A stretch of 64,000 bases of DNA. It comes from Bacteroidota bacterium (GTDB lineage: Bacteria; Bacteroidota; Bacteroidia; NS11-12g; UBA955). This document shows, one piece after another, positions 9,097 through 12,161 of this stretch. Numbering within the stretch: the first letter of the stretch is position 1; each line of letters opens with the position of its first letter. The DNA lies in assembly GCA_027488835.1 (NCBI GenBank), contig JAIYAW010000009.1:248001-312000 (forward strand). Direction: 5' to 3'. The notes beneath the pieces are model-generated. The model made no database searches and was not told the origin of the DNA. It worked only from the letters and a program-made list of their open reading frames with translations. Made by a program: the position numbers and the translations under genes.

Positions 9097-9210
9097 AACT
9101 ACTGCAAAATAAACATGAAAACTGATAGTATGATATAAAAATTTGAATAATAGTATAAACAGTTGAAAAGTTGTGTTGTGAACCTCGAAATATTAGAGTT
9201 ATTTTGCACC

Positions 9211-10896
9211 ATGCAACAGTTTATTGTTTCAGCAAGAAAATATAGGCCAACTACATTTGCCGATGTGGTGGGTCAAAAGCATATTGCTGATACCTTGATG
9301 CATGAAATTACCAATAATAAATTGGCTCAAGCTTTTTTATTTACTGGACCAAGGGGAGTGGGTAAAACCACCTGTGCCCGAATTCTGGCCAAAGTAATTA
9401 ACTCTCAAAACGAGGCTGAAAATCCCAATCAAGATTTTGCATTTAACATTTTCGAATTAGACGCAGCTTCAAACAATTCAGTTGACGATATTCGTCATTT
9501 GGTAGACCAGGTGCGCATTCCACCTCAAGTTGGTAAATACAAAGTATATATCATTGATGAGGTTCATATGTTGTCGAATCAGGCTTTCAATGCCTTTTTG
9601 AAAACGCTTGAAGAGCCGCCATCTTACGCAATCTTTATTTTAGCAACTACAGAAAAGCATAAAATTCTTCCAACGATTTTGAGCCGTTGCCAAGTGTTTA
9701 ATTTTAACCGTATCGAAGCTTCTGATATGGTTGAACATTTGAAAATGATTGCCAAAAATGAAAACATTGAAGCTTCAGAAGATGCATTGCACTTGATTGC
9801 AAGAAAAGCGGATGGTGGATTGCGTGATGCACTGAGTTTGTTTGATCAATTGGTAAGTTTTTCTGGTGGCGACGTTACTTACGCCAAAGCAGTTGAAATT
9901 TTAAGTATTCTAGATATGGATACATTCTTCGCTGTAACTGAGGAAATATTGAACAAAAACATTGCCCAATCATTGTTGATTTTTGACAATGTTTTGAACC
10001 AAGGATTTGATGGCTCTTTGTTTGTGTCTGGAATGGCACAGCATTTTAGAAACCTCATGGTTTGTAAAAATGAAAGCACCCTTAAGCTTCTCGATGTTTC
10101 TGAAGCATTTAAATTGAAATACCTAGAACAAGGTAAGAAATTAGATTTGGGACTGATTATCAATGCCCTGAATTTAACCAACGAAACCGACGAGAAATAT
10201 AAGTTTAGTCGAAATCCTAGGCTACTTGTAGAGCTCATGCTCATTAAACTTGCCCACCTTGCTCAATTTATTGCTGAAATCCCCACTTTGGAGGATATAA
10301 AAAAAAAAATAGCTAATCCTACTTTAGCGGCACCTGCTCCAACACCTGTGAATGTTGTTACAAAAGATAGGGCAGTACCAACCATAAAAGAGGCGATTGA
10401 AACCAAAGTGTCATCTACCCGGCTAGGGAAATTAGACAGGGATTCATTCAAGCAAAGTAAACTTGAAAAAGCTACTCTTGCTGAGGAAGCAACAACTTTG
10501 GAAGCTTCTCAGAATGCCATTTCTGTTGACGATTTAAATCATACAAATAATAAAATTCCTTCCATCCAAGAAATCATGGATGAATATTGTAATACACAAT
10601 CTCAACGCGTAAGTGGGTTAATCAAGTCAATTAGTTATTCTTTGAATAATAGTGATTTGATTTTGACTGTTTCGAGCAAAGCACAGGAACTTGCTGTTGA
10701 AGATTTACGAATTCCGTTATTGCAACATTTGTTAAAAGTTTCTAGAAATACAATTACCAATGTTTTGTGTGTTATGGGAAAGGTTGAAGAAGCCGAAAGA
10801 AGGCCATATACCGACAAAGAAAAACTAGATTTTTTCCTGAAAAAGCATCCTGAATTAAACAAGGCAATTGAAAAATTGCATTTGCGTTTGCTTTAA
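9211..10896 (+). CDS. dnaX: DNA polymerase III subunit gamma/tau
   Basis: MQQFIVSARKYRPTTFADVVGQKH, GPRGVGKTTCARILAK, IIDEVHMLSNQAFNAFLKTLEEPP; start reassigned to ATG 9211. Contains A11 tract 10299-10309. Confidence 0.95.
   Translation: MQQFIVSARKYRPTTFADVVGQKHIADTLMHEITNNKLAQAFLFTGPRGVGKTTCARILAKVINSQNEAENPNQDFAFNIFELDAASNNSVDDIRHLVDQVRIPPQVGKYKVYIIDEVHMLSNQAFNAFLKTLEEPPSYAIFILATTEKHKILPTILSRCQVFNFNRIEASDMVEHLKMIAKNENIEASEDALHLIARKADGGLRDALSLFDQLVSFSGGDVTYAKAVEILSILDMDTFFAVTEEILNKNIAQSLLIFDNVLNQGFDGSLFVSGMAQHFRNLMVCKNESTLKLLDVSEAFKLKYLEQGKKLDLGLIINALNLTNETDEKYKFSRNPRLLVELMLIKLAHLAQFIAEIPTLEDIKKKIANPTLAAPAPTPVNVVTKDRAVPTIKEAIETKVSSTRLGKLDRDSFKQSKLEKATLAEEATTLEASQNAISVDDLNHTNNKIPSIQEIMDEYCNTQSQRVSGLIKSISYSLNNSDLILTVSSKAQELAVEDLRIPLLQHLLKVSRNTITNVLCVMGKVEEAERRPYTDKEKLDFFLKKHPELNKAIEKLHLRLL
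10299..10309 (+). repeat. A11 homopolymer within dnaX (candidate slippage site)
   Basis: gaggatat-AAAAAAAAAAA-tagctaatcc read directly; the longest coding homopolymer I noticed in the window. Confidence 0.95.
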
Positions 10897-10991
10897 GTTA
10901 AATTCTGTTCAACATTGTGCTTGTTTTTTGGAATAACAAAAGATTTTTCTTTCTGCTATGCTGCTTTTGACGTTACTTTGTAGAAAGGATT

Positions 10992-12161
10992 ATGCAGGTG
11001 AATTCAAACATCTCTTTTCAGGATACTGCAACAGCATTTGCGCATAAAACCGATAAGGATTTAAGCAGGGCTCGTTTACTTTTTCGTTCATTCGATTATC
11101 CGATTTTGTTGAAGTGGGGACCTGCTTTGGCGAAAATTGCCGTTTCATTGGGATTTAAATTTGTAATTAAAAATACTATTTTTAAACAATTTTGTGGGGG
11201 TGAGAATATCAACGATTGCGTGACTGCAATTCAAGGTTTATCGCATTCCGGCATTGGAACGATATTAGATTATTCTGTTGAGGGAGAAGAAAGCGAAGTT
11301 GTATTCAAACATACTGCTGCTGAAATTAAAAAGACCATCGATATAGCCAAAGGGAATTCAGATATTCCTTTTGCGGTTTTTAAAGTTACCGGAATCATAG
11401 ATTCTCATGTACTAGAAAAGAAATCTGCCAATGACCAATTAAGTCCCTCAGAAGAAATTTTATGGAACAATGGAAGCAAAAGATTTTTTGATGTTTGTGA
11501 GCATGCCAAAAATTGTGATGTAAGGTTATTTATTGATGCTGAAGAGTCTTGGATTCAAGAAGCAATTGATAGGTTGGCAGAGCAAGCAATGTCTCAATTC
11601 AATAGCGAAAAAGCAACTATTTACAATACTGTTCAATTATATCGCCACGACCGCTTGGCATACTTAAAAAAACAGATTGCCGAAAGTGAAGTTTTTCTTG
11701 GTTTCAAATTGGTTCGTGGAGCTTACATGGAAAAAGAAAGAGCACGTGCGGTTGAAAAAGGATATGAAGACCCAATTCAACCAAACAAAGCAAGCACTGA
11801 CAACGATTATAATGCGGCTGTGACTGTTTGTCTTGAAAACCACAATAAAGTGAGTGTTTGTATTGGAACCCATAACGAGAATAGTTCTATGTTGGGAGTT
11901 CAATTGTTGGAGAAACACAATTTGCAACCAAACGACAAAAAAGTTTACTTTTCACAACTTTTAGGGATGAGTGATCATATAAGTTTTAATCTTTCTCATT
12001 CAAAATATAACGTTGCTAAATATGTGCCTTACGGTCCTGTAACAGCGGTGATTCCATATTTAACCCGCAGGGCACAAGAAAACAGCAGTGTGGCTGGTCA
12101 AATGGGAAGAGAATTGGCTTTGATTGACTCAGAAATTACGAGACGTAGCAATGCAAAGTAA
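10992..12161 (+). CDS. Proline dehydrogenase
   Basis: KLVRGAYMEKERARA, IGTHNENS, FSQLLGMSDHISF, YVPYGPVTAVIPYLTRRAQEN motifs. Confidence 0.92.
   Translation: MQVNSNISFQDTATAFAHKTDKDLSRARLLFRSFDYPILLKWGPALAKIAVSLGFKFVIKNTIFKQFCGGENINDCVTAIQGLSHSGIGTILDYSVEGEESEVVFKHTAAEIKKTIDIAKGNSDIPFAVFKVTGIIDSHVLEKKSANDQLSPSEEILWNNGSKRFFDVCEHAKNCDVRLFIDAEESWIQEAIDRLAEQAMSQFNSEKATIYNTVQLYRHDRLAYLKKQIAESEVFLGFKLVRGAYMEKERARAVEKGYEDPIQPNKASTDNDYNAAVTVCLENHNKVSVCIGTHNENSSMLGVQLLEKHNLQPNDKKVYFSQLLGMSDHISFNLSHSKYNVAKYVPYGPVTAVIPYLTRRAQENSSVAGQMGRELALIDSEITRRSNAK

Follow-up and report, generated by a model that had tools for sequence, protein, structure and literature searches.

A conserved poly(A) run at the gamma/tau border of Bacteroidota dnaX genes as a probable transcriptional slippage site

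The dnaX gene encoded in the window (the whole 64,000-nt stretch of Bacteroidota DNA analyzed here) contains an uninterrupted run of 11 A's at the gamma/tau border, and sequence comparison indicates that this run is probably a programmed transcriptional slippage site. Runs of about ten A's are present in most sampled Bacteroidota, where they very probably cause slippage that lets one gene give two clamp-loader proteins, one long and one short. In the proposed mechanism, RNA polymerase would slip on A11, making a fraction of the dnaX mRNA one A longer or shorter. Transcripts of the templated length would encode full-length tau (561 aa), and slipped transcripts would stop at a TAG or TAA right past the run, giving a gamma-like subunit of about 366–368 aa with domains I–III only. 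The masses expected for the short and the long form are about 41 and 63 kDa, and the short form would terminate in EDIKKK or EDIKKKNS. In known systems, the C-terminal region of tau binds polymerase alpha and the helicase. That the gene has some form of programmed dual DnaX product is highly likely. The relevant features of the window are the following:

9211–10896, + strand: dnaX, full-length tau-like frame of 561 aa, with ATG at 9211 and stop at 10894–10896; matches NCBIfam TIGR02397
9211–10308, + strand: segment of 366 aa common to tau and the predicted gamma-like product, AAA+ domains I–II and collar domain III (Pfam)
10299–10309, + strand: A11, putative slippage-prone run at the border of domain III and the linker (sequence; comparison with 308 Bacteroidota dnaX genes)
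10310–10312, + strand: TAG that would be reached by a transcript one A shorter (frame +1), stop offset 0
10314–10316, + strand: TAA that would be reached by a transcript one A longer, or by ribosomes slipping −1; stop offset 4
10309–10893, + strand: tau-only segment of 195 aa, linker and C-terminal domain, homologous to the segment in other frames of two-ORF relatives and under purifying selection

The presence of AAA+ clamp-loader ATPase, lid and collar domains identifies the product as DnaX (TIGR02397, Pfam, PDB). It scores 397 bits against TIGR02397 dnaX_nterm (cut-off 250), the Pfam families DNA_pol3_delta2, DNAX_ATPase_lid and DNA_pol3_gamma3 cover residues 22–355, and the best PDB matches are the tau/gamma chains of E. 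coli. A Pfam search with the 195 residues beyond the run matched no family. Residue 355 is the last of the collar domain (DNA_pol3_gamma3); the KKK encoded by the run follows eight codons on, at residues 364–366. The in-frame context is GAG GAT ATA AAA AAA AAA ATA GCT AAT CCT. Removal of one A gives ATA AAA AAA AAA TAG and a product of 366 aa, and addition of one A gives ATA AAA AAA AAA AAT AGC TAA and a product of 368 aa, with the stop at most 4 nt away after either change. The preliminary description of this DNA had the run, the dnaX frame and the flanking codons exactly right, and both truncated products as well as the placement just past the collar domain are confirmed by the sequence and the Pfam boundaries. 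The short product, which it likened to E. coli gamma, is predicted to end only about 11 residues past domain III and is thus shorter than the 431-residue E. coli protein.

The genome containing the window (2.49 Mb in 9 contigs, about 65% AT) has 76 runs of nine or more A's on both strands, and only four of 11 or more, the dnaX run included. Given this rarity, the A11 in dnaX exceeds chance. Of the three others, two fall where no gene is likely, and the third (G000:C1:139119-139136) is an A18, immediately preceded by T8, at or just past the end of an AroQ-like open frame.

A total of 308 distinct Bacteroidota dnaX genes were compared, 229 of them found by whole-genome search across the genus, family, order, class and phylum of the window and 79 taken from named Bacteroidota records. 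A profile set the reading frame and located where the collar domain ends, and the longest A run was scored in the following 270 nt. A run of at least nine A's is present at the gamma/tau border in 259 genes: 11/11 in the genus, 46/47 in the family, 30/30 in the order, 77/93 in the rest of the class, 29/48 in other classes of the phylum and 66/79 among the named Bacteroidia. Two more genes carry A10 at 301 and 310 nt, just beyond the search stretch. At the family level, 54 of the 73 sampled groups have the run. In the named set it is found in all Flavobacteriales, Sphingobacteriales, Cytophagales, Chitinophagales and Saprospirales, and 11 of the 18 Bacteroidales lack it. Overall, the run is absent from 47–49 of the 308 genes, many of them from Bacteroidales, which indicates that gamma is not universally needed. 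The sole sampled member of the window's family without the run is L029 (genus g11), where the longest A run is 5 and tau is intact in the zero frame; this recent loss could act as a natural control.

Run lengths at the site are bimodal, either 7 or less (49 genes) or 9–12 (A9 in 29, A10 in 213, A11 in 15 and A12 in 2 genes), never 8, with a mode at A10. The preliminary description had taken A11 as the feature; what is kept is a run of at least nine A's, but the conserved unit is A10, carried by 9 of the 11 genus members. Likewise, the ATA codons on both sides, described as maximizing the run, do so in this species, but the nearest relatives, with DnaX 96% identical, read ATA AAA AAA AAA TTA. 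The comparison of relatives at the nucleotide level, proposed beforehand as a test, came out as predicted: runs of nine or more A's and close stops in the +1 and −1 frames are kept in the genus, in its family and order, in most of the class and in part of the phylum, and the linker flanks drift. Among A10 genes, nearly all flanking columns carry less than 0.35 bits of information (the run columns are full by construction), and both the phase and the flanks of the run drift among relatives, GC-rich genomes included.

A lysine-rich linker in an AT-rich genome might happen to be encoded entirely by A's and have no function, and the base composition (about 65% AT) and the location of the run in a poorly conserved linker agree with this. 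However, the site is enriched about 1000-fold. In these genes, the dnaX coding sequence upstream of the site (321 kb) contains one run of nine or more A's and 1.23 Mb of other flanking DNA contains 37, and elsewhere the length distribution declines smoothly (A8 98, A9 32, A10 4). Moreover, the run is retained in genomes with GC contents up to 0.65–0.70, and in 8 of 13 genomes at 0.60–0.65; AAG makes up 31% of lysine codons elsewhere in the same genes; and two-ORF relatives exist. For the whole family, the run counts already refute chance, and for the window gene it is very improbable. An error of sequencing or assembly is hardly credible at all. Homopolymers are error-prone, and the window species has A11 where its sisters have A10, but A11 preserves the tau frame, the A10 sisters differ by substitution (TTA against ATA) rather than by an indel, and the run recurs in more than 250 other dnaX sequences. 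Single homopolymer lengths from draft genomes should nevertheless be read with care: some lone +1 cases, such as L101 (A9), could be assembly miscounts, whereas clade-wide patterns, such as that of all 15 genes in genus f1g13, are not explicable in this way.

Two architectures are present among the 259 run-bearing genes. In 161, including the window gene, tau is encoded in the zero frame. In the other 98, the zero frame stops 0–18 nt past the run and tau is read in a different frame, −1 (one more A needed) in 93 and +1 in five; the directly encoded gamma has a median length of 369 aa. In the 93 genes of the −1 type, the tau frame is open over a median of just 5 nt before the run begins. The possibility that the tau C-terminus is translated independently, as a gene of its own, was considered and rejected, as an ATG is within reach in only 6 of the 93. 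The short upstream opening and the scarcity of ATG mean that the frame change has to happen at the run. The median dN/dS of the tau-only segment is 0.161 in two-ORF and 0.182 in single-ORF genes; this similarity indicates that tau of the two-ORF genes is made and selected, and since a tau in another frame is under purifying selection, slippage must work in these genes. The run, its conservation, the nearby stops, the exchanged architectures and the selection on tau in two-ORF genes are all read from the sequences. The homopolymer mechanism put forward in the preliminary description thus gains from the two-ORF relatives the support that slippage is productive; for this species we infer slippage itself, its transcriptional level, its efficiency and a replisome role of gamma.

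By parsimony on one FastTree DnaX tree, the architecture changed at least 35 times and the phase at least 32 times while the run was kept. Across Bacteroidota, the run is retained and the default product swapped: about one-third of the run-bearing genes template gamma, and slippage would make their tau. That both products remain encodable after dozens of interconversions suggests that both are selected for. In single-ORF genes, stops in both non-zero frames occur within 30 nt in 93%, as compared with 36% when the downstream codons are resampled synonymously and 31% at control positions, although some of them may be left over from earlier architecture swaps. With the run and these stops, any slip in a single-ORF gene yields a DnaX of about 360–370 aa.

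The frequent architecture switches on the tree, together with the high mutability of homopolymers and run lengths of 9 to 12, would also be expected if the run changed length during DNA replication, cells switching between gamma-only and tau states. Such phase variation is a most improbable explanation, since the architecture is uniform in well-sampled genera (13 to 15 genes of the same type in f1g5, f1g13 and f2g15) and the lengths form a sharp peak at 10 rather than a spread. The essentiality of dnaX in well-studied bacteria also counts against it.

The remaining question is the level at which slippage occurs. In E. coli dnaX, −1 programmed ribosomal frameshifting takes place at A_AAA_AAG, aided by an upstream Shine-Dalgarno (SD) sequence and a downstream stem-loop. 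About 7 A's suffice for a ribosomal slip site, and the usual RNA–DNA hybrid length is close to ten. Frameshifting of this kind, or sliding of ribosomes on poly(A), could act on uniform mRNA, alone or mixed with transcriptional slippage. Every A10 includes the heptamer A_AAA_AAA, and the exact in-frame A_AAA_AAG is found in 53 genes. A −1 shift, the direction used in E. coli, is required by 93 of the 98 two-ORF genes; the opposite direction, required by the other five, speaks against ribosomes. For E. coli ribosomes, A_AAA_AAG is a far better slip site than A_AAA_AAC or A_AAA_AAA (PMC5009743). In the window, the heptamer A_AAA_AAA is followed by ATA, with no G after the run, and so departs from the E. 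coli slippery sequence. The base following A10 is not limited to G (G in 114, T in 52 and C in 47 genes), and the phase of the run relative to the frame is free among relatives. Bacteroidia ribosomes sequester their anti-SD sequence, which speaks for transcription, but in F. johnsoniae prfB the +1 ribosomal frameshifting operates despite the occluded anti-SD, which speaks for ribosomes (PMC8710568).

The search for ribosomal stimulators gave the following picture. GGAGG is located just 5′ of A11 in the window, and SD-core motifs are found upstream of the run in 26% of genes against 5–20% at control sites; for strong SD motifs the figures are 11% of run-bearing genes and 8–10% at downstream control sites. 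An Rfam scan of positions 9100–11000 returned only chance matches and no dnaX frameshift element. Downstream folding of the 259 genes has a mean z of −0.6, against −0.1 to −0.3 at control sites, which indicates no general hairpin; strong folds are confined to a few genes, several of them in the family-mate genus f1g13. A downstream hairpin and an internal SD sequence were accordingly rejected as general stimulators, neither standing out clearly from the control windows. Transcription is preferred to ribosomal frameshifting, and is the likely level of slippage judging from these sequences, because of the length threshold, the free phase and the lack of a general stem-loop or SD motif. In particular, nothing shorter than nine is kept at the site, with no gene with 8 and a mode of 10, near the hybrid length, though ribosomes need only about 7. 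A ribosomal event is unlikely but deserves more weight than the rival readings considered above.

In three members of f1g13 (L162, L164 and L174), the folds predicted right after the run are unusually strong, with z down to −6.9, and GTGATGA is kept after the run in this genus. A stem-loop may have been added locally downstream of the run in the two-ORF genes of f1g13.

The closest known counterpart is dnaX of Thermus thermophilus, where gamma arises by transcriptional slippage on A9 (Larsen et al., 2000, as cited in PMC1088944). Like it, the window gene combines a single tau ORF with an A homopolymer of at least nine at the gamma/tau border and nearby stops in both other frames. The slipped mRNAs giving gamma have been demonstrated experimentally in T. 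thermophilus, whereas those of the window dnaX are predicted from sequence. The Thermus run, A9 rather than A11 or the A10 of relatives, belongs to a different phylum and is located about seven-eighths through the gene, according to the account in PMC1088944, while that of the window lies about two-thirds through (codon 363 of 561). With E. coli dnaX the window gene shares the gamma/tau outcome and tau in the zero frame, but it has no Rfam stem-loop element, its relatives have no general SD or hairpin, and the run is longer than ribosomes require.

Poly(A) runs in two-ORF dnaX genes were recorded in the GeneTack survey, which lists 17 such genes from 12 genera, including Chlorobi, nine of the genes with A10 and three from Chlorobi with 7–9 A's, and proposes programmed transcriptional realignment at the dnaX poly(A) (Antonov et al., 2013, PMC3711429). 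The two-ORF form and A10 are therefore prior art. The genes described there resemble the window gene in having poly(A), mostly A10, at the gamma/tau border, but their zero frame yields gamma, and a slip is needed for tau; the window gene, with tau in the zero frame, is the reverse. As GeneTack detects frame transitions, single-ORF relatives of this type are beyond its reach. In the literature searched, which included few subscription papers, there is no account of single-ORF A10/A11 dnaX in Bacteroidota or of the phylum-wide conservation and interconversion.

It appears reasonably likely that most Bacteroidota share A10 transcriptional slippage in dnaX as an ancestral trait under selection, tuned to one length by the RNA polymerase hybrid, kept through dozens of swaps of the tau/gamma default and repeatedly lost, e.g., in Bacteroidaceae and Prevotellaceae-type Bacteroidales. 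If so, production of both clamp-loader forms by slippage would be the normal state rather than a rarity, and a major phylum would use slippage as a routine step in producing its replicative clamp loader, in most of the Bacteroidia sampled apart from the Bacteroides-like lineages. A slippage site that persists across a phylum while its default product is repeatedly reversed is a more interesting result than the window gene alone; it bears on the long dispute over whether gamma is a real and needed subunit. For genome annotation, two-ORF dnaX genes of Flavobacteriales and their relatives are at risk of being recorded as truncated or broken.

In an uncultured Bacteroidales MAG (L138:1690-2800), dnaX has no A run; an in-frame TAG falls precisely on the gamma/tau border, and tau continues in the same frame; stop readthrough is possible, as is an error in this single sequence. 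Another uncultured Bacteroidales MAG without the run (L128:3001-4150) changes to the +1 frame soon after the collar, near GAG TGC TAA AAA TCC, by another type of recoding or an assembly error. Wide searches for relatives of these two genes returned nothing close, the best match being 68% for L138 and none passing the cut for L128. In a genome of about 0.5 Mb and 21% GC (L279), dnaX ends 27 nt past the collar anchor and is followed by an open frame that looks like an unrelated gene, so that this very small genome apparently encodes a gamma-only clamp loader.
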